Shown: piece after piece, positions 3,247 to 62,918 of the stretch
Layout: the number at the start of each line of letters is the position of its first letter
How positions within the stretch are numbered: the first letter of the stretch is position 1
Origin: Halorientalis persicus
GTDB taxonomy: Archaea; Halobacteriota; Halobacteria; Halobacteriales; Haloarculaceae
NCBI RefSeq assembly: GCF_900110215.1
Contig: NZ_FOCX01000013.1
Span: 62,001 to 126,000, forward strand
DNA length: 64,000 bases
Direction of reading: 5' to 3'
The notes under the pieces: generated by a model
Databases searched by the model: none
Seen by the model: only the letters and a program-made list of their open reading frames with translations
What the model was told of the DNA's origin: nothing
Made by a program: the position numbers and the translations under genes

Positions 3247-3405
3247 TAAACTAACTATGGTTTCTGAGTATGCAAATTACTGAAAAGGCAATACAGAGGT
3301 GTGCGTAGAAACACAGTAATTCGCTCAGACAAAGGAGCGAACAAGTTCGTACGCTGTTCTAGCATAAAGGGAGGATCTAACCACCAAGGCGGGCGGTCAA
3401 GGCAA

Positions 3406-3477
3406 GAACGCACAGCGAGTCGAATCTTATTGTGTCGAGCGGAGCGCTCTCGTTGCCGTGGAGTTCGCTGTGCGTTC
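3406..3477. repeat. 13-bp inverted repeat next to cdc6
   Basis: gaacgcacagcga (3406-3418) and its exact complement (3465-3477) flank 46 bases that contain the palindrome gagcgctc. It ends six bases before the first origin-box-like sequence. It may be a cdc6 terminator, a small RNA, or part of the origin. Confidence 0.65.
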
Positions 3478-3482
3478 GGACC

Positions 3483-3531
3483 TTCCACTGGACGCACCTC
3501 CGATGGAGCTTACATCGGACGTACCCCCGTC
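3483..3531 (+). repeat. Two tandem origin-recognition-box-like repeats
   Basis: A good copy at 3509-3531 (cttacatcggacgtaccccc followed by gtc) and a weaker copy at 3483-3502 (ttccactggacgcacctccg) share the pattern ttacattggacNtaccccCG with the three copies upstream of cdc6. The C-run (G-run on the other strand) is typical of haloarchaeal origin recognition boxes. They abut the cdc6 stop codon. Confidence 0.65.
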
Positions 3532-3533
3532 AC

Positions 3534-4799
3534 CTACTCCATTTTCGGTCGCAGCAGATCCTGGATTAAGTCCTTGATCCGACTCTCATCGGCAAGATTG
3601 TCGAGTACGGTCTCAGCTTTGATCTCCAGTTCGTAGCGGTTGGTCTTCCCAAGCCCCTGGCCACGGCCCTTCGTCGTCTTTGCCAAGATACCCGAATCAG
3701 CAAGATCGTTGAGCTTGTCGCGGAATCGGCGTTCAGAGATGTCCTTGGCGTCGATATGCTCACAGAACACTTCGTACAGCGAGTACAGATCCTTCGTCTC
3801 CGGCAACTTAGTGCCGGTTACTGTCGCGTGCGTCACGGTCAAAAGCGCCAGCGCACGTTGGAGCGGGAGTGACTTAATCCCGCGCTCGACGGCAGCCCGC
3901 TCAAGATACTCGTGGGCGTTGCGGACGTGCTGCTCGGTGACCTCAGATTCGCCCTCATCGTCGGCGAACCGACAGGCACGGAACAGCAGCTTGATTGCCT
4001 CACGAGCGTCACCGGAGTCCTGAGCGGCGAGCGCACTGGTGAGTGGGATGGCATCGTCAGTGAGCACGTCGCTCTCGAGTGTTTGCCACGGCTCGTCCTC
4101 ATCGTCGATGTCGGTGTCACGAAGGGCACCGGCCGCGCGCCGAGCCAAGATGTCTCTGAGTTGGTTGGCGTCGTATGGTGCGAACTCGATTTCGTCCTCG
4201 CCGAGCGAGGAGCGGACGTCGGCGTCTAGGCTCTCGCGGAACTGGAGGTCATTCGTGATGCCGATAATCGAGAGTCGGACGTCGTCGGGTTCGGCGCGAG
4301 GGAGCTCGTAGAGGATGTAGTCATCGGTGCCGATGGCGTCGATCTCGTCGAGGATGACGATCACCGTGCCGCCGATCGCCTCGAGTTCGTCGATAATCAT
4401 CGACAGCAGCGTCTTCTTCTGGTAGCCGCTTGGGAGTTCCTCGCCTGGCCCGTAGCGTTTTTCTCGGAGTGCCTTCAGGAGATGCGTCATTACGTGGTAG
4501 CTCTTGTCCATCCCCTTGCAGCGGACGTGGACGACGTGGAGGTCGAGGCCGTTGTCGTTCGCGAAGGACTGCAGTTGGTTCGTCTTTAGTTTGACGCCGA
4601 CGGTCTTTCCCTGGCCCGTCGGGCCGAACACAAACGCGTTCAGCGGCGTCGAACCCATCGCTGCCGGCTTCAGTGTCGAGTGGAGTTGGTTCAGTTCCCC
4701 TTCTCGCTCGGGGAGCGAGTCGGGTTGGTACGTCTGGGTGTTTGGGTTGAGTCGATCTAAGTCGACGAAGATCGAGTCTTCATCCCCGAACGAACGCAT
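3534..4799 (-). CDS. orc1/cdc6: Orc1/Cdc6 replication initiator
   Basis: 421 aa, the normal length for archaeal Orc1/Cdc6. It is an AAA+ ATPase that binds origin recognition boxes and starts replication. Visible: Walker A GPTGQGKT (residues 59-66), Walker B VIVILDEIDAIG (about 147-157), a sensor region with GITNDLQFRESLD, and a C-terminal winged-helix domain from about residue 310 (FCEHIDAKDISERRFRDKL, then LAKTTKGRGQGLGKTNRYEL). Origin-box-like repeats flank the gene on both sides, with the inverted pair and AT-richer DNA upstream, which is the usual haloarchaeal initiator-origin arrangement. It probably drives replication of this plasmid or element. The start MRSFGDED is the most natural one. 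Confidence 0.93.
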   Translation of the reverse strand: MRSFGDEDSIFVDLDRLNPNTQTYQPDSLPEREGELNQLHSTLKPAAMGSTPLNAFVFGPTGQGKTVGVKLKTNQLQSFANDNGLDLHVVHVRCKGMDKSYHVMTHLLKALREKRYGPGEELPSGYQKKTLLSMIIDELEAIGGTVIVILDEIDAIGTDDYILYELPRAEPDDVRLSIIGITNDLQFRESLDADVRSSLGEDEIEFAPYDANQLRDILARRAAGALRDTDIDDEDEPWQTLESDVLTDDAIPLTSALAAQDSGDAREAIKLLFRACRFADDEGESEVTEQHVRNAHEYLERAAVERGIKSLPLQRALALLTVTHATVTGTKLPETKDLYSLYEVFCEHIDAKDISERRFRDKLNDLADSGILAKTTKGRGQGLGKTNRYELEIKAETVLDNLADESRIKDLIQDLLRPKME

Positions 4800-4864
4800 T
4801 GAGGCAATGTGTGGGTTGGTGGGTCATAACCCTGTCGTCCGAGTGGTACGGTGACGTCCGCGTT

Positions 4865-5138
4865 ACGGGGGTGCGTCTAGTGTAAGCTGGTGGTGGTGTG
4901 GTATCAGATCAGATCGATCAGACCCGGGGGACGGGGGTGCGTCCAATGTAAGAGTGGAACGATAGGGACAGAGAATCCATCACACGTCAGATCTAACTTT
5001 GGCCAGGGGAAGGCTTATTACACCACTACTCAAACAATATCTGTACTCCGCAAGACTTTGCGGTGTAGGTAGGTGTTGGTTGCTGGTTGTGAAAGTCGGA
5101 CTAGAGCTTCGTGAGTTTACATTGGACATACCCCCGTC
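4865..5138. other. Candidate replication origin upstream of cdc6
   Basis: Two boxes in one orientation (4865-4886 and 4930-4952, acgggggtgcgtcNaNtgtaag) face one box in the other orientation (5116-5138, tttacattggacatacccccgtc). Between them, 4953-5115 is poorer in GC than the surroundings and contains a 6-bp hairpin with a four-base loop at 5048-5063 (ccgcaa/ttgcgg). Inverted G-run boxes around an unwinding element, next to a cdc6 gene, match known haloarchaeal origins. Function is inferred from architecture. Confidence 0.8.
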
Positions 5139-5423
5139 CCCCGGGAGGTAGCGGAAACAGTAGTCTCTCTGTTTAAGCCGAGAGCATCAACAGCCGTGTC
5201 CTCGATCAACTCTTCCAACACGGAAACCGTCACAGCCGGGGGACTCCTCGATGTAGCGCGTCCAGTATGTCGCGAGGTCAGCAGGGTTACAGCGTACGTA
5301 CAGTTGCACGGGCCTTACAGATGCTCGAGTTCGACCTGGAATCGCGGGAGCGCTGCAAGCGGGATTCCTCCAGAACGGTCACCCATGGTCAGGTATTCGT
5401 GCAAGACTGCCTCCAGTGTCCCG
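5139..5423. other. Non-coding, possibly decayed minus-strand frame
   Basis: No intact gene. On the minus strand two adjacent frames look partly protein-like: one ends near 5315 in RFQVELEHL, and another runs on through QLYVRCNPADLATYW toward 5200. They could be halves of a frameshifted gene, but neither has a start. The 13-mer agtagtctctctg at 5160-5172 repeats one arm of the stem-loop at 2264-2378. Confidence 0.3.
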
Positions 5424-15583: not shown

Positions 15584-17266
15584 TTACAACCCGAGGAAGC
15601 CAAACCGTCCGGAGTCGTCATCGTCATCAGCTGGTTGCTCGGACTCACTGAACGGTTGCTCGTGAGCAGTGTCCTCGACATCGAGGGCAGCCTCCAGCCG
15701 GTCGATCCGTTGCTGAAGGCGCGTAATCTCCTCTTCTTGCTGTTCGGCTTTCTTTTTCCAGTGTTTCATGAGCTGTTCGTTGCGATCAACCTCACCCTCG
15801 AGTTCCTGGATCCGGCCGGCGATCTGCTCGACCCATGGCGGGACACTCCCCTGGAAGTCGAGGATCTGGGTATACCAGTCCTCGAAGTACTGGGTTGTGG
15901 TGGTACGGGAAGCACCAGTGTCGTCACGCCGTCGGGACTCCGACGTCGATTGGTTCGTGTCGGTGGGGTCCCGATCTTGGGTGTGATCGCGTGACTCTGC
16001 TTGCGATCCTCGGACCACCGGATCACGACGGTTGCTCTCCGTAGGTGGCGTTTGGTCCGGTTCTGTCTGGTTAGATTGTGTCGTCGACGAGGAACGGTCT
16101 TCCGCAGGGCTGTCCTGGTGTCCACCTGCCGACCGAACGGGCGAACTGCCGTCGACAGACTGCGATTCCGACCGGTGGCTCTGTGACTGTGCGTTTTGCT
16201 CCTGTTCATCGTCCAGATCGAGATTTGAGTGGTCGAAGGTATCGGTCACGTGGCCGAGGGCTTTGCTGATCGTCTTCTGGCCGTAGGTCTCGGTCCCACG
16301 GTCTGCATCCCATTTGTCGCGCATCAATCCGGACTGGCGGAAGATCGTATCCATCCGGTGGGGATCTTTGTCTGTCCAGAACGCGAGCATCGAGCAAAAT
16401 GCCATATCGGCCTCGGACTGACTCTCGTACCGGCCTTTCCAGTTCCCCTCCCAGAGTTGTTGGAACTTCTCTCCATTGGCTGCGTTCAGGGCATGCTGGA
16501 CGAGAGCCGCGTTCGTCCGGGAAAGCCCTGGTACCGATGCTGATTCGTTGCTGGTGTCCGCTGTTGATGCTGGTTCACCGTTTTGTGCAGACGCTTTCCC
16601 GTTCCCACTGGGTCCCGTTGGGGTGTCACCGTTGGACGAGAGGACTGCGCCACCGGCCTTCGCCTTGGGGCCGTTCCCCTTACCGTTGGTACTGGCCTCG
16701 TCCTCGAGCCAGCATGTGTCCATCGTGGTTTTCTCACCGATGTACTCGTCATAGACCGATTCGAGCGCTCGTTGACGCTCCTCGATGTCGCCGGCCCGAT
16801 CTGGAAATGGAGCGCCGGAGACAGTGAAGTACCGCCCAGTTTCGTAGATCTCGATGTCATCCTTCCGATTTCGGTCACCCGGTATGTCCGCTTTGATCAA
16901 GACGTGCGCCCCGGTCCCCGACGGGCTAACCTCAGTATAGCTGTCGAGTGTCTGGATCACATCCGTCGCCCACGCGTCCGTCTCTCCTGATTCGGGTTCC
17001 CGGCAGTCATCGAGGTCAACGCCAACGTACGGATCCTCGTCTGTAAACACGAAGCCGATACCGTCGACGGCGTCACCCTGCATCGAGAACTGCAGAGCTT
17101 CTCGAAAACTAGTCCAGGTCGTGGGGTCGTCCGTCGATGCATGGCCCCCGGTTCCTGGTTCGACTGGGATTTTCGTTTCTTTGCCGTCCCGCGTTTTCGT
17201 CCGCCAGCAGATCCACTGATCGGTCTGGCGGAGTTCTGCGGGGACGTTCTCAGGGTTCCCCATCAT
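15584..17266 (-). CDS. AEP-type primase-polymerase
   Basis: 560 aa. The N-terminal archaeo-eukaryotic primase domain (about 10-170) shows WICWRTKTRDGKETKIPV, the catalytic acidic motif VGVDLDDC (Asp84/Asp86), SYTEVSPSGTGAHVLI with His121, and GRYFTVSG (about 144-151), as in NrS-1-type plasmid and phage primase-polymerases. Residues about 250-345 (ADMAFCSMLAFWTDKD, then MDTIFRQSGL) match the helical domain that follows in that family. A Ser/Gln/Asp-rich linker and a coiled coil (about 480-530) lead to a C-terminal GRFGFLGL motif. The helicase half found in bacterial relatives is absent. It sits inside the transfer operon, so it may prime the transferred strand or the element's own replication. 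Confidence 0.8.
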   Translation of the reverse strand: MMGNPENVPAELRQTDQWICWRTKTRDGKETKIPVEPGTGGHASTDDPTTWTSFREALQFSMQGDAVDGIGFVFTDEDPYVGVDLDDCREPESGETDAWATDVIQTLDSYTEVSPSGTGAHVLIKADIPGDRNRKDDIEIYETGRYFTVSGAPFPDRAGDIEERQRALESVYDEYIGEKTTMDTCWLEDEASTNGKGNGPKAKAGGAVLSSNGDTPTGPSGNGKASAQNGEPASTADTSNESASVPGLSRTNAALVQHALNAANGEKFQQLWEGNWKGRYESQSEADMAFCSMLAFWTDKDPHRMDTIFRQSGLMRDKWDADRGTETYGQKTISKALGHVTDTFDHSNLDLDDEQEQNAQSQSHRSESQSVDGSSPVRSAGGHQDSPAEDRSSSTTQSNQTEPDQTPPTESNRRDPVVRGSQAESRDHTQDRDPTDTNQSTSESRRRDDTGASRTTTTQYFEDWYTQILDFQGSVPPWVEQIAGRIQELEGEVDRNEQLMKHWKKKAEQQEEEITRLQQRIDRLEAALDVEDTAHEQPFSESEQPADDDDDSGRFGFLGL

Positions 17267-18927: not shown

Positions 18928-20841
18928 TTAGGCTCCATCGGCCCCGCCGGCGTCCCCTGCGTCAGTGCCGTTCGTGGTGCTTTGGGTCCCGCTGTTTTGA
19001 GGCGAACCGGCACCGGCTCCATTTTGTTGGGTTTGCTTGCGGGTGTCCTTAGCGGTCGCCGCTTTCTCGACATCGCCCCGTGAGGCGGCCTGCCCATCAT
19101 CACTGTGCTTCTGCTTCGCCCGATCGTGAGCCATGACGGGTGCATAACCGCCCATTCCATAGGCGCCTGCTCGGAGAGTGGCGGCTCCGGTTTTGGCGGT
19201 TGCCTTTCCGCCTTTCTTTCCGGCTTTCATGGACACCGCTGTCGCCGCTGCGGCCTTTTCAGCCGAGTGACTCCTCGTAGCTGCGATTTTGAAGTTTTTG
19301 ACCAGCGCCTCGTGTCTATCTTCCATGTTCTCTTTTTTCCAGTCTCCATCACGGGTTTGATAGCGTATCTCGCCCGACGGTCTAACCTCAGCTTCCTTGT
19401 CGTATTTCGGTTCCTCGTCAAGAAGCCCGCGCTCATGGGCTTCACCGAGATCCACAGATTGGTCATCGACCTGCCCTTTCAGCCAGTCTGCATCTTCTTT
19501 GTACGATTGGGCAACGTTACTCGGGCGGCGGTTTTGGACTCTCTCGCCCATATCAGTTAGCACACTCTTGGCCGAACTAGCTCCACTGTAATCAGCGATT
19601 GTTGATTTCGCGCTTTCCTTCGCCCCAGCGGCCTGCACTGCAGCGTCGTCGAAGTAACTTGGCGGCCGACCTTTCCCCGCACTCTGGACGTCACCATCCA
19701 TCTGATCGCCGAGATTACCGTTGTCGATAGCTGCACGGGGTGTCCCGCCACTCGAGGAGCCGCCGTTACTCGATCCGGATTTCCGCCGTGATCCACTCCC
19801 GCCGTTGCCACCACCGCCAGAGGCGCTCACAGCGCCGGCAGCAGAGCCACCGGCGTCCGCACCGGCAACCGCACCCTTTCCAGCGGCTGCGCCGGCGGCC
19901 GCGCCACCGGCAGCCATGGCGGCTGTCGTCGCCATGCCGACAGCCTTCCCGATGCCCATCGGCTGGCCGGCCCAGCTGATCGCTTTGAACACGATCGCGA
20001 CGAGTACGAACGGAACCAGAACGACTAGCACCAGTTGTGTCCAATACCGCGTCGCACCACCACCAGCGCCAGCCTGGACGACGCCACCAGCCATGATGAC
20101 CTTCATCGCTCGGAGCGCCACGGCAAGAAGCGGGCCTGCCAACAATGCGTATACTCCCATCCGGCCGACCTTGGCAGCGAATTTGTGGATATGGATGCCA
20201 AAGCCCCAGTCGGGGTACCACATGACTGCCCAGATCGGCGCTCCGAGGAACACAATATAGACGATGTACGTTCGCAAGGCGAGCGCGAAAATCGACAGCG
20301 GGGTCGCGATCATCATCAGGACCGCCGCCTGGAAGTAGGCCGCGATCAGCGCCATCGACCCGAACGTCGATTCGATGTTGAACTGGTTACTCCCCGGATT
20401 GAAATTCAGCTGAAACTGCTCCGGCGCGATCTGCATCGTCACTGCGTTCATCGCGTCAACGCCGAGACCGATCAGCGGTTTCGAGAGCGCGATGATCAAC
20501 ACGACGGAGGCAATCCGGAACCCCTGCCGCCAGAGGTGTGCTTTCTGTCGGTCTGCCCACGGCATGGACAGCAGGCCTACGACAATCATCAACGGGAACA
20601 GCGCCACGGCCAGTTTGAACGATGCTTGCCATGCGGCCACTGCCTTTGTGGAGGTGGCTGGGTTCACGATCTTCAGCAGCGGTGTGAGAGCAACCCCTGT
20701 CAGCTGGAAGAATCCCTCGAGAATCGATCTGATGAATCCCTGGAACGCCCCGAAGATCGCATCAGCAATATCGCCCGGGCCGGGAATCCCGATCAAAATG
20801 ACGTAGTTGGCGGCGGTCACCAGCGGATTGGTCTCAATCAT
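18928..20841 (-). CDS. VirB6/TrbL-like transfer membrane protein
   Basis: 637 aa from the ATG that overlaps the virB4-like stop (ATGATTGA). The first 300 residues carry about six transmembrane helices with VirB6/TrbL-like spacing, including a central SIFALALRTYIVYIVFLGAP and a helix LVLVVLVPFVLVAIVFKA. A Gly/Ala-rich segment (about 310-370) follows, then a long hydrophilic, Lys/Asp-rich cytoplasmic tail with helices. VirB6 and TrbL proteins form part of the inner-membrane translocation channel. Coupling to the VirB4-like gene and the pilin in the same operon supports the assignment; sequence identity to bacterial members would be low. Confidence 0.7.
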   Translation of the reverse strand: MIETNPLVTAANYVILIGIPGPGDIADAIFGAFQGFIRSILEGFFQLTGVALTPLLKIVNPATSTKAVAAWQASFKLAVALFPLMIVVGLLSMPWADRQKAHLWRQGFRIASVVLIIALSKPLIGLGVDAMNAVTMQIAPEQFQLNFNPGSNQFNIESTFGSMALIAAYFQAAVLMMIATPLSIFALALRTYIVYIVFLGAPIWAVMWYPDWGFGIHIHKFAAKVGRMGVYALLAGPLLAVALRAMKVIMAGGVVQAGAGGGATRYWTQLVLVVLVPFVLVAIVFKAISWAGQPMGIGKAVGMATTAAMAAGGAAAGAAAGKGAVAGADAGGSAAGAVSASGGGGNGGSGSRRKSGSSNGGSSSGGTPRAAIDNGNLGDQMDGDVQSAGKGRPPSYFDDAAVQAAGAKESAKSTIADYSGASSAKSVLTDMGERVQNRRPSNVAQSYKEDADWLKGQVDDQSVDLGEAHERGLLDEEPKYDKEAEVRPSGEIRYQTRDGDWKKENMEDRHEALVKNFKIAATRSHSAEKAAAATAVSMKAGKKGGKATAKTGAATLRAGAYGMGGYAPVMAHDRAKQKHSDDGQAASRGDVEKAATAKDTRKQTQQNGAGAGSPQNSGTQSTTNGTDAGDAGGADGA

Positions 20842-23545
20842 CGCTCTCACCCCCTTGGGTCTGCGATTCCAGATTTGCAGGCATCACATCAGCCTCGTTG
20901 GGTGACTCCGGCTCTGGATCGATCCCGTCCAACAGCGCTTCGTCGTCGACGGCCGACTGTGGCTGCACCGAGCCGGGATATCCGTTGTTCTCCATCCACC
21001 GCCGATCGCGTTCGCTGAGCATCCCCTCGTTCTGGAGGTACGTCCACGGGTCACGGTCGTCGTCGAGGATGTGGTGCTCGAACTCGCCGGAGTAGACGTC
21101 CAGCCACCGACGCCCGTGCTGGGACGTACTCAACAGACATTCGGAGTAGTCGGCATCCTCGCCACGAGTAGCGCGCTGAATATCGCGCACCTCGTCTTCG
21201 GAGAGCTCGAAGTAGTCGACGACCTCCGGTCCGACGTTCTCCTGATAGAACAGCTGCTTCACGTCGCAGTTGTCGTAGATTTCTCGCGTAGCGTCGTTTT
21301 TCAGGAACTCCTCGGCAGTCTGGCTGATGAGCGTCAGGCCGGCGCTGAAGTGGCGGCTGTGCCGGATGAACAGGTTGATCAGATCCCGCGCACCGTCCCG
21401 GCGGAGCAGGTAGTGCGCTTCCTCGAAGGTCACGTCAGTCTTCTTGTCCGACCGGCGAGCCTCGTCGTAGGCCCAATTCAGCATCGCGTGCATGATGATC
21501 GGCATCTCGCCCGTGTCTGCGAACGAACTCATGTCGAACACGACGAGGTCGTCGTCGAGGTCGATATTACTCGGGCCGTTGAGGTTGCTGTTGATATTCC
21601 ACTGCTTGAGTGATTCGAGTTTGGGCTCTAACTGCCGGGCGATGGTCTGATAGCGTTCCGGCGGTGTCTGGAGGTTCGTCACTGCATCCAGCACCTCGCT
21701 CTCGACATCGTCGGCGTCGGTGTCGACCGTCAGCCCATCATCGTCGAACGTGACACCGAGCCTGTTCGGGATGATCTCCTTGAGTTCCTCGTCGGAAAGG
21801 CCACCGTTCGCGATGATCCCAACGCCTTCGATCACGTCGTCGATGATCGGGCTCTCCCGGTCGAACGTCTCGGGATCCGGCGTGATGCCTTGCTTGAGGT
21901 AGGCGTAGTAGATCGCATTCGAGATGACTCCCTCGTCGCCAGACGTCATCCCGTCGGTGTCTTTCTCGTCCAGATACGTGCCGAACAGTCTGACGACGTT
22001 CCGGAGTTTCAGCTTGAACGCACTCTCCTGCGTGGTCGCATCGTGAGCGGCCCGATCGATATCGAGCGGGTTGATCCGGTAGTCGCCACCGAATTTGATC
22101 ACCGTGCCACCCAGCTGTTCCACGAAGTCGACGAAGTCATCGCCGAGCGGGTCGAAGATGATCGTCTTGAGGTCGTCGTCGACGAGGATCCGCCGCCAGA
22201 GCGCCATCTTCGTCGCGTAAGTCTTCCCCGATCCGACCTTGCCGCTGATGGCTTTCGAGTGGCCCGACAGCCCGTACCGATTGATGATCACTGGGCGGTT
22301 CGTGTTGTCGAAACCCAGCAGGATCCCGTTCTCGTCGTCGACGGCGGGCTCAACGAAATTGAAACACTGTGTCAGTGCCTCCAGTTGGACTGTGTTGTGG
22401 TTCTCGATCTCCGGGCTGGCCAGCGGGGCGACCGACGCCTGGGCGGCGTCTTGCTCGGCCTGAATCGGAGTCAGATCGAGCCCTTGCTGGCGGGCGCGGC
22501 GCTGGATCCGCTTGCTCGCTTCCTGCATCTCTTCGAGGGTCTGCCCACGAATCTCCACAAAGACCGAGACGTCAAAGAGCTTGGTCGTCCCCTTGACGAG
22601 TTCTCCGAGCAGGCGGTCGAGTTCCTCGGCTTCGTGCTCTTGTTCGTGCGTGTCCGTGCGGTTGCGGCGTTTCTTCCGCTGGATCGCGCTTTTCATCTGA
22701 GTCAGCCGCTTCTGGAGGCGCGATTTCACGTCCTCCGTCTCCCGTGGGTTGATCTGCATCGACAGGCGCACGTCCTCTGACGCGAGTGTCAGCGGCAAGA
22801 GCCACCCCGACGAGAGAAATCGCGGGAGTGATGATGCGGTAAGGATCTGGTAGAAGTCCCCATCTCGGGAGTGCCAGTTCGCCTCCTCGTCGATGACCTC
22901 TGGCGCGAGGACCGACCGATCGATCCGGCCCTTCTCCTCGTCGGTGGTGAACGTCGTGGCCAGCGTCGTCTCGTCCGTCGAGGCCAGCTGGTACGCGGCT
23001 TTTTCGATGGCGTCCTTATCGGGCTCCTGGCCGACGGCCTCGAGATACTCGATGGCCTCCTGCATCTCCTCGCCCGAGAGGTCGTCGATGGGGATGCGGC
23101 CGTCTTCGTCATCTCCGCCGTCCTCACCGCTGGGAGTCAGGAGTCGGTCGGTGAGCGAGGATGATGTCTGTGGGTCTGCAGTGGTATCGGCCGAGTCATC
23201 GTCACTTGGGCTTCGCCACGGGAGGACGACCTCAACGAACAGCGGCGTGCGCCAGACAAGTGCGGCGACAATACACGCCGAGACGACCGCAGCGATCGCA
23301 CCGGCGAACAGCCCAGCGCGATACGCGGGCCACGAGGCGGTGATGAGGCGGGCCCCAGCATAGCGCTGGATGACGATACCGCTGATACCGACCACCATCC
23401 CAGCGACGCCGGCGCGGACTTTCGAGTGGCGGTACTGCCAGCTGGTCACGGCGACCATCAGCGCGGCGATGAGTGCGTTAGCCCCGACACCGAGGGCGAT
23501 CAGTTCGGGTCGTGAGAGAGTGTATGGACCAATCATCGTAATCAC
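20834..23545 (-). CDS. virB4: VirB4/TraC-type transfer ATPase
   Basis: 903 aa from a GTG overlapping the upstream stop; an ATG 9 bases on is an alternative. Residues 10-105 hold three to four hydrophobic helices, an unusual membrane addition. The VirB4 core shows a proximal domain (about 230-400), Walker A SGKVGSGKT (about 434-442), IIFDPLGDDFVDF, a Walker B-like DLVVFDMSSF (about 668), an FEEAHYLLRRDGARD motif and the typical FIRHSRHFSAGLTLISQTAEEFL box. A C-terminal acidic tail follows. VirB4 ATPases power pilus assembly and substrate transfer. It is overlapped by a VirB3/VirB4-N-like gene upstream and a VirB6-like gene downstream. Confidence 0.88.
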   Translation of the reverse strand: MITMIGPYTLSRPELIALGVGANALIAALMVAVTSWQYRHSKVRAGVAGMVVGISGIVIQRYAGARLITASWPAYRAGLFAGAIAAVVSACIVAALVWRTPLFVEVVLPWRSPSDDDSADTTADPQTSSSLTDRLLTPSGEDGGDDEDGRIPIDDLSGEEMQEAIEYLEAVGQEPDKDAIEKAAYQLASTDETTLATTFTTDEEKGRIDRSVLAPEVIDEEANWHSRDGDFYQILTASSLPRFLSSGWLLPLTLASEDVRLSMQINPRETEDVKSRLQKRLTQMKSAIQRKKRRNRTDTHEQEHEAEELDRLLGELVKGTTKLFDVSVFVEIRGQTLEEMQEASKRIQRRARQQGLDLTPIQAEQDAAQASVAPLASPEIENHNTVQLEALTQCFNFVEPAVDDENGILLGFDNTNRPVIINRYGLSGHSKAISGKVGSGKTYATKMALWRRILVDDDLKTIIFDPLGDDFVDFVEQLGGTVIKFGGDYRINPLDIDRAAHDATTQESAFKLKLRNVVRLFGTYLDEKDTDGMTSGDEGVISNAIYYAYLKQGITPDPETFDRESPIIDDVIEGVGIIANGGLSDEELKEIIPNRLGVTFDDDGLTVDTDADDVESEVLDAVTNLQTPPERYQTIARQLEPKLESLKQWNINSNLNGPSNIDLDDDLVVFDMSSFADTGEMPIIMHAMLNWAYDEARRSDKKTDVTFEEAHYLLRRDGARDLINLFIRHSRHFSAGLTLISQTAEEFLKNDATREIYDNCDVKQLFYQENVGPEVVDYFELSEDEVRDIQRATRGEDADYSECLLSTSQHGRRWLDVYSGEFEHHILDDDRDPWTYLQNEGMLSERDRRWMENNGYPGSVQPQSAVDDEALLDGIDPEPESPNEADVMPANLESQTQGGESDD

Positions 23546-61605: not shown

Positions 61606-62918
61606 ACGGTCGCCACACCCCATTTGTCGACATCGGCATCGAAGACGAGTTCTTCCTCGGCACGGCCAGGGAACGGGTTCTCGTAGCGCTCCCAGTCCTC
61701 GTCCATCTCGGCATCGGTCAGCAGACAATCGTCGAGCGAGTTCTGGATCGCGGTTTCGTCGAGGTCGTGGCCGATGAACACGAGGTCGATCTCGCGGTCA
61801 CCCCACTCTTCGTCCCAGTCGAGGTCGGGTCTGGCTTCTCGGTACGCCTTCCGTTGAAATTCAGGCATGGTCGCGGCCCACTGGCCGTTGACGTCCACTT
61901 GAACCTGTGTGCCGGCGAGGTTACAATTGAGCGCGTGTCGCTCTCTGCCGGCGACCCACATGAGTCCCTTCGCGCGGACCACGTCGGCAGGAACGTCTGC
62001 GAGCCAGTCGACAAGCCGCTCGGGGTGGAACGGTCGCGGCCGACGGTAGTTACACGAGGTCAGCCCGAACTCTTCGGGCGGGTGGAGGTGATCATCGTGG
62101 TCGTGTCCCTCGTGGCTGTGTCCTTCGTTGTCGTGACTGTCCTCGTGGTCGTGATCGTCTGAATCGTGACCCTCCCCGTCCTCGTCGTCCGTCGCTTCCT
62201 GGTGATACTTGTGTGCCTGTTTCCAGCCAGCGCCGCCACTCACCCGGTCGAGGTCGAATCGTCCCACGTCGAGGAGGACACACGGGTCGACCCGTCCGCG
62301 TTCGGCTGTCTCGATGTCTGCCTGTGGCTGCAAGGCTCGGATCAGGGACTCGACCTCAGCTAACTCCTCGTCCGTGACGAGATCCGTCTTGTTGAGCAGG
62401 ACCAGATCACAGAATTCGACCTGTTCGGCCAGGAGATCCGAGAGAGGTTTCGCGTCCTCGGTCACCTCGTTGACTTCCGCACCGGCGATGAACACGTCGT
62501 GGAACAGCGCGGCATCGACGACGGTGACGATGGTGTCGAGGTTGTAGTGAAACGCTGCCTGGCGATTGCTCCGCACTGTCTGTGCGACTTCTGCGGGGTC
62601 GCTCATTCCAGAGGGTTCGACAACGAGCGCGTCGAACTCGACTGTCTTGGCCAACTCGACGATCGTCTGGCCGAACTCATTGGCGAGCCCACAGCAAATG
62701 CACCCGTTCGAGAGCTCTGTTACGGTGGTCTCGTCGTCGTCGAGCGTGACCTGCCGCTCGACGAGGGCAGCATCCACGTTCACCTCGCCCATGTCGTTGA
62801 CGAGCACCGCGATTTCCCGTTCTTCGGGCGCGTTTTCGAGCAGATGGTTCAGCGTCGTCGTCTTCCCGGCACCGAGCCCGCCGGAGAGGATCGAGACTGG
62901 AATATCGGAGGCCGACAT
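61602..62918 (-). CDS. COG0523 metallochaperone GTPase with His-rich loop (paralogue 2)
   Basis: 438 aa. Walker A GGLGAGKT (13-20), metal motif GCICC (Cys73, Cys75, Cys76), VVEPSGMSDPAEVAQ, base motif NKTD (about 181). A long His/Asp/Glu-rich loop (about 248-285; many HDHxHxH repeats such as EGHSHEGHDHDDHLH) lies between the GTPase and the C-terminal domain with SCNYRRPRPFHPERL and KGLMWVAGRE. His loops store or pass Zn, Ni or Co. In operon with another COG0523 gene upstream and moaB, iscU-like and cbiL downstream. Confidence 0.9.
   Translation of the reverse strand: MSASDIPVSILSGGLGAGKTTTLNHLLENAPEEREIAVLVNDMGEVNVDAALVERQVTLDDDETTVTELSNGCICCGLANEFGQTIVELAKTVEFDALVVEPSGMSDPAEVAQTVRSNRQAAFHYNLDTIVTVVDAALFHDVFIAGAEVNEVTEDAKPLSDLLAEQVEFCDLVLLNKTDLVTDEELAEVESLIRALQPQADIETAERGRVDPCVLLDVGRFDLDRVSGGAGWKQAHKYHQEATDDEDGEGHDSDDHDHEDSHDNEGHSHEGHDHDDHLHPPEEFGLTSCNYRRPRPFHPERLVDWLADVPADVVRAKGLMWVAGRERHALNCNLAGTQVQVDVNGQWAATMPEFQRKAYREARPDLDWDEEWGDREIDLVFIGHDLDETAIQNSLDDCLLTDAEMDEDWERYENPFPGRAEEELVFDADVDKWGVATV

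Follow-up and report, generated by a model that had tools for sequence, protein, structure and literature searches.

The cdc6 Locus and Its Origin Boxes

The window analyzed here is a 64,000-nt stretch of Halorientalis persicus DNA that covers positions 62001 to 126000 of the 133,990-bp draft contig C71. Near its left end, on the minus strand, lies an orc1/cdc6 initiator gene (3534 to 4799) that encodes a 421-aa protein with an AAA+ domain, a Cdc6 lid, and a C-terminal winged helix. Pfam matches of this protein above the cut-off are Cdc6_lid, Cdc6_C, and AAA_22, and its structure matches include S. solfataricus Orc1-1 (2qby_A, E=5.6e-48) and A. pernix ORC1 (2v1u, E=2.6e-45). The reading frame is intact, and the protein is 97% identical to its counterpart at the PHS2 origin of Halobacterium salinarum R1. 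The initial annotation of this DNA had described five related copies of a box core around the gene, and all five are found: four have at most 3 mismatches to the core TTACATTGGACNTACCCCC, and the fifth is a weak copy with 4. At a threshold of 3 mismatches the core has 4 sites in the window, compared with 0.02 expected, and the whole 4.87-Mb genome contains only these same 4, all adjoining the cdc6 gene; a reversed control pattern of the core gave no match in the genome. The motif search that had been named as a check thus places the core at one locus and does not find it equally common elsewhere.

Three of the boxes lie upstream of cdc6. The outer one, box 1 (TTACATTGGACATACCCCCGTCCCCCGG, plus strand, 5117 to 5144, with its core at 5117 to 5135), has no mismatch and a run that faces outward, and is kept in the related loci L023 to L026. 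Box 2, the inner box (TTACATTGGACGCACCCCCGTCCCCCGG, minus strand, 4924 to 4951, core at 4933 to 4951), is inverted relative to box 1 and has 1 mismatch, while box 3 (TTACACTAGACGCACCCCC, minus strand, 4867 to 4885) has 3 mismatches and sits at a fixed distance from the cdc6 ATG. A core half-site (CGCGGACGTC, minus strand, 4853 to 4862), of which GGAC is kept in the alignment, lies between box 3 and the promoter. Neither this half-site nor the promoter element described below had been noted in the initial annotation. Two further boxes on the plus strand follow the gene: downstream box 1 (3510 to 3528, 1 mismatch), which is 6 bp beyond the stop codon, and the degenerate downstream box 2 (TTCCACTGGACGCACCTCC, 3483 to 3501, 4 mismatches). 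The PHS2 counterpart of the latter has 2 mismatches at an identical 27-bp spacing, and so the weak copy in the window is probably a decayed real box. Boxes 1 to 3 and downstream box 1 all end in a five-base G/C tract. Beside downstream box 2, where the cassette ends on its downstream side, there is also a perfect 13-bp inverted repeat (GAACGCACAGCGA at 3406 to 3418 and TCGCTGTGCGTTC at 3465 to 3477), a possible terminator or cassette-end feature.

The spacer between boxes 1 and 2 (4952 to 5116) is the presumed unwinding element. It is 52% AT compared with 40% window-wide, a level that only 5% of equal-sized windows reach, which bears out, at a modest level, the AT-richer segment described in the initial annotation. 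The hairpin noted there is present in the window (CCGCAAGACTTTGCGG, about 5048 to 5063) but is not conserved: the PHS2 origin, although otherwise close in sequence, has it disrupted, so a role for it is improbable and it was rejected as a functional element.

The criteria for an orc/cdc6-adjacent haloarchaeal origin, as set out in PMC3528665, were applied to the locus. The adjacent gene encodes an Orc1/Cdc6 longer than 300 aa that has both the AAA+ and the winged-helix domain; the intergenic region holds inverted ORB repeats in the form of boxes 1 and 2, plus box 3; a G/C tract (the "G-string", given there with no strand specified) is found at the box ends; and the element between the inverted boxes is AT-rich to the modest degree given above. 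The boxes fall outside the canonical G-string ORB class, which carries its G-run on the strand reading NNACA..GGA(A)C, as the run here is C. They also fall outside the oriC1 family, which is recognized by an oriC1-type Cdc6 of at least 80% identity and TTCCAC..GAAAC..GGGG boxes. Elsewhere in the same genome, a locus with TTCCACCTGAAACGAAGGGG boxes (contig C36, L008/L019) encodes a Cdc6 that is only 31% identical.

We assign the locus, with a probability of roughly 0.8, as an Orc1/Cdc6 replicator-initiator cassette with ORB-type boxes that belongs to a plasmid-borne haloarchaeal family. An ORB origin beside cdc6 is of a known kind, and the origins predicted in PMC3528665 may already include the PHS2 relative. 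In the mechanism we propose, the Cdc6 encoded at 3534 to 4799 would bind box 1 and box 2 in head-to-head orientation; its winged helix would read TTACAttGGAC while its initiator-specific motif (ISM) contacts the outward C:G tract, and two such complexes would then open up the AT-richer spacer and load MCM.

Conservation of the Layout in Related Loci

A comparison with relatives drawn from plasmids and genomes shows the box set and order to be unchanged where Cdc6 is 76 to 97% identical, namely in PHS2 (L025), Halorubrum laminariae (L024), and Halobaculum (L023 and L026). The layout therefore recurs in four relatives from three genera (Halobacterium, Halorubrum, and Halobaculum), and across loci the boxes and Cdc6 diverge together. 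With boxes that are unique to the locus, a layout kept across genera, and co-divergence of boxes and initiator, the origin-box reading of the initial annotation is well supported. The PHS2 origin (OE_RS11980) resembles the window in the number and order of its boxes as well as in sequence, with 89% DNA identity over 3372 to 5254, but differs from it in its neighboring genes, in the absence of the hairpin, and in a better preserved downstream box 2. The H. hispanica oriC1-cdc6A origin (Wu et al. 2014, PMC3936714) shares with the window the inverted boxes, an AT-richer spacer, a position beside cdc6, and tract ends that face outward. It differs in that the tract on the core strand is G there and C here, and in that the two Cdc6 families are distant; the G-rich inner repeat of oriC1 was not found at the window locus.

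Distances between the boxes are conserved to differing degrees. Boxes 1 and 2 are separated by a run-to-run distance of 193 to 195 bp in six loci (L005, L023 to L026, and L047), and box 3 lies 71 to 72 bp upstream of the cdc6 ATG in all five close relatives, while the distance from box 2 to box 3 varies among the relatives, as does that from boxes 1 and 2 to the promoter. Because the spacing of boxes 1 and 2 is kept while the promoter distance varies, we read these boxes as a unit of their own, so that the region would consist of an origin unit (boxes 1 and 2 with their spacer) and a promoter-linked box 3. This bears on a different account of the locus, in which the boxes are chiefly regulatory and serve, in place of an origin, as operators for control of cdc6 by Cdc6 or another regulator. 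The position of box 3, the half-site, and the promoter element, all adjoining the TATA-like stretch, is consistent with such a role, as is the general presence of ORB cores in cdc6 promoters described below. Against it stand the constant spacing of boxes 1 and 2 in the six loci and the fact that such an inverted pair defines working haloarchaeal origins (PMC3936714), and we regard a purely regulatory function as improbable.

Downstream of the gene, one or two boxes trail cdc6 in the relatives. The first of these occupies the same place in PHS2, 6 bp after the stop codon, and a similar place in Halobaculum, and the arrangement of one good and one weak box is kept in Halobacterium and Halobaculum. 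The H. hispanica oriC2-cdc6E locus with its titration cluster oriC2D (PMC3936714), a type of cluster defined by cognate ORBs that lower origin activity, likewise has extra boxes directly downstream of cdc6; there are eleven in oriC2D and two at the window locus. Boxes just downstream of cdc6 may bind surplus Cdc6 in the manner of the Haloarcula hispanica cluster, a putative titration function.

The Box Tract Lies on the Opposite Strand in One Cdc6 Clade

The boxes had been described initially as G-run boxes. When the core is read in the direction used for other haloarchaeal ORBs (TTACA..GGAC), however, the run is C, as seen in all three boxes upstream of the gene and in downstream box 1. Elsewhere in this genome, cdc6 loci have boxes that end in G-runs on the core strand, e.g., AACAGCGGACATGGTGGGG. 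Run-anchored inverted box pairs in 121 loci were called by a single polarity-symmetric rule with shuffled controls, and a Cdc6 tree was built. The window cdc6 falls in a 22-row clade (SH-aLRT 100) in which 19 rows were called C and none G; the remaining three uncalled rows have C-run boxes by pattern, and L036, the sister row of the clade, is also C. Outside the clade 39 rows were called G, and only L074 was called C. Joining L074, which has a long branch, to the C-run clade was not rejected (AU p = 0.46), and the C-run boxes of this distant Cdc6 are a possible, not a certain, second origin of the C-run. A further set of loci, which includes a few repeats of earlier species as well as L142, the same gene as L074, gave 13 clade members called C and none G, and 10 non-members called G and none C, with the rest uncalled. 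The tandem boxes of a single locus, L094, include G-rich as well as C-rich tails. In a sister group (L064 and L148 to L152) the boxes read GGAAACACCCGGGGG (ACACCCGGGGG, with the tract CCCGGGGG), and these look like intermediates. A 2-base difference in core-to-tract spacing between the C and G classes was considered and dropped because, once the interrupting T in GGTGGGG is allowed for, the G tract begins only about 1 base nearer.

The apparent strand flip could be an artefact of reading, in which a pseudo-palindromic core, taken backwards, makes an ordinary G-run ORB look reversed; ORB cores do have partial dyad symmetry. However, the caller handles both polarities alike, and four loci (L028, L032, L035, and L036) contain one core with both run polarities. 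At L028 the core in one orientation is followed by a C-run at the origin box (CACTGGACGCACCCCC) and by a G-run at the promoter (CATTGGACATGGGGG), and the other three loci are likewise. The similarity of the core to promoter sequence (see below) is also greater in the direct orientation than as the reverse complement. An artefact of this kind is accordingly quite unlikely, and we treat the difference in tract strand as real.

Two regions of the protein differ along with the tract. In the ISM region the clade has the insert GPGEE and the sequence PSGYQKK, compared with P.G.... in G-run Cdc6 proteins, and the wing of the clade reads GRGQGLGKTN or GRGRGRGMTN compared with N.G..GG.Y. The G-run ORB families of other plasmid Cdc6 proteins (TTATGCGGACAtGGTGGGG and similar) are like the window in their TTA..GGAC core orientation, layout, and promoter element, but differ from it in the strand of the tract, the ISM insert, and the wing sequence. 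The ISM of A. pernix ORC1 makes contact with the G-tract (PMC9738581), ORBs bind Orc1-1 with a defined polarity (PMC12141716), and the G-strings of H. hispanica oriC1 are essential (PMC3936714). We infer that the changed ISM may read the flipped tract. The other-strand tract together with the changed ISM and wing would probably separate this initiator-box pair from the other Orc1/Cdc6 pairs in the cell. Haloarchaea have ten or more Orc1/Cdc6-origin pairs per cell. A clade-wide flip of the ISM-touched tract with matching ISM and wing changes amounts to a natural swap experiment on origin specificity. In the literature covered we found no account of a flipped tract limited to a single Cdc6 clade.

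ORB Cores in cdc6 Promoters

The promoter element of the window cdc6 (CTCGGACGACAGGGTTATG, minus strand, 4825 to 4843) combines an ORB-like core, GGG, and a TATA-like stretch at positions -44 to -26. The motif GGTTWW occurs at -65 to -15 in 71 of 110 cdc6 genes compared with 10 of 125 other plasmid genes (p about 6e-21), and shuffles gave 9.9 on average. The 24 bases preceding the element match the ORB core of their own locus at 6.49 of 7 (n = 41), while permuted loci gave 5.40, with a maximum of 5.73 in 2000, and the reverse complement 4.85. Within the C-run clade, GGG or GTGG stands beside the TATA-like stretch in 19 of 23 promoters. Haloarchaeal cdc6 promoters at most of the surveyed loci have ORB-core repeats, often with 9-bp spacing, right before the G-run and TATA.

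The presence of the ORB core at cdc6 promoters suggests an autoregulatory operator. At the window locus, box 3, the half-site, and the promoter element could allow Cdc6 to bind its own promoter and so limit its own synthesis. A competing explanation for part of this pattern is that the promoter G-run is a BRE-like basal transcription element of cdc6 genes and no contact of Cdc6. The G-run directly abuts TATA and is also found in families whose origin boxes have C-runs, both of which fit a basal element; against it, the preceding 24 bases share the locus's own ORB core to a degree that exceeds every permutation, and few other plasmid genes (6 of 125) have the combination. We consider the basal element a possibility of some weight, if somewhat doubtful. 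Returning to an operator read by Cdc6, we tentatively propose that in one Orc1/Cdc6 branch the ORB tract of the origin boxes switched strands, whereas the initiator's own promoter retained the ancestral G-tract next to the same core; this would give the cell two physically distinct classes of site, origin and operator, for a single initiator, in addition to separation from other pairs. ORB cores in cdc6 promoters make archaeal initiator autoregulation directly testable. We found no description of such cores in the literature covered; the words "promoter" and "TATA" are absent from the text of PMC3528665, and PMC3936714 mentions autoregulation for bacterial DnaA only.

Activity of the Origin and Status of the Replicon

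The initial annotation had concluded that the left half of the window is probably a replicon and not an integrated island, but this does not follow from the presence of the cassette, since integrated elements also carry cdc6-origin cassettes, the ends of the 133,990-bp contig do not overlap, and no ParA-family gene (PF13614) was found on contig C71. GC skew, which had been named as a check on an origin near 5 kb, has no clear turn there and is uninformative. Matches to haloarchaeal plasmids, above all to Halorientalis marina plasmid 3, occur in the left as well as the right half of the window, and the gene content is of plasmid type; there is thus no sign of a replicon/chromosome boundary in the window, and a strict boundary at mid-window was discarded. 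Status of the left half as an autonomous replicon is plausible.

A second cdc6 (L006) lies on the same contig at 783 to 1895, outside the window, with its own G-run boxes, at least 8 of them in order (AACAGCGGACATGGTGGGG) upstream and downstream of the gene, and this may be the working origin of the contig. The window cassette could then be a dormant or dead origin that arrived with mobile DNA, with its boxes as intact remnants and replication driven by the other cdc6. Origins that are dormant despite perfect-looking ORBs have been documented (PMC4595724 and PMC3528665), and because two well-formed predicted origins of H. hispanica had no ARS activity (PMC3528665), the window origin may be dormant as well. 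On the other side stand the intact cdc6 frame, the 97% identity of its protein to that of PHS2, and the nearly perfect boxes 1 and 2, and we hold dormancy to be rather unlikely, though with an appreciable chance of being correct. Dormancy would in any case leave the identity of the locus as a replicator-initiator cassette unchanged. A circular 93.7-kb plasmid of Halobaculum rubrum yielded no Orc1/Cdc6 besides the homologous one and has no other annotated Rep, which supports the capacity of this Cdc6 family to serve an origin.

Mobility of the Cassette and Its Surroundings

The cassette at 3372 to 5254 is shared horizontally with H. salinarum R1 PHS2 as a single block of 88.7% nucleotide identity, with no similarity to PHS2 in the flanks beyond it and no match of comparable quality in 7 other genomes of the genus. 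Because it is so similar to PHS2 without matching neighbors, and is absent from these seven congeners, the 1.9-kb cassette is taken to have moved as a unit. Its boundaries show that an origin and initiator of roughly 1.9 kb can move between genera together. A virus source of this Cdc6 was rejected, as it has no relative in IMG/VR and phage matches reach only 25 to 28%.

Next to the cassette, about 20 kb of the window (5970 to 25999) is colinear with H. marina plasmid 3 (L073:11227-31859). That plasmid does not have this cassette at the corresponding place, and inside the block it has a different cdc6 (L073:21586-22812) that is absent here. Comparison of the two sequences points to a likely origin exchange, and the cassette difference fits the exchange of origin-initiator pairs described for Haloarcula (PMC4441112). 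The colinear block also carries a HerA/VirB4-like ATPase (20834 to 23545). A 560-aa protein encoded at 15584 to 17266 has an NrS-1 polymerase-type HBD domain (Pfam PF22763) and is a possible plasmid primase-polymerase. To the left of the cassette, the HalOD1 output-domain gene region at 1610 to 2905 is a widespread plasmid module, 85 to 90% identical to segments of many haloarchaeal plasmids.
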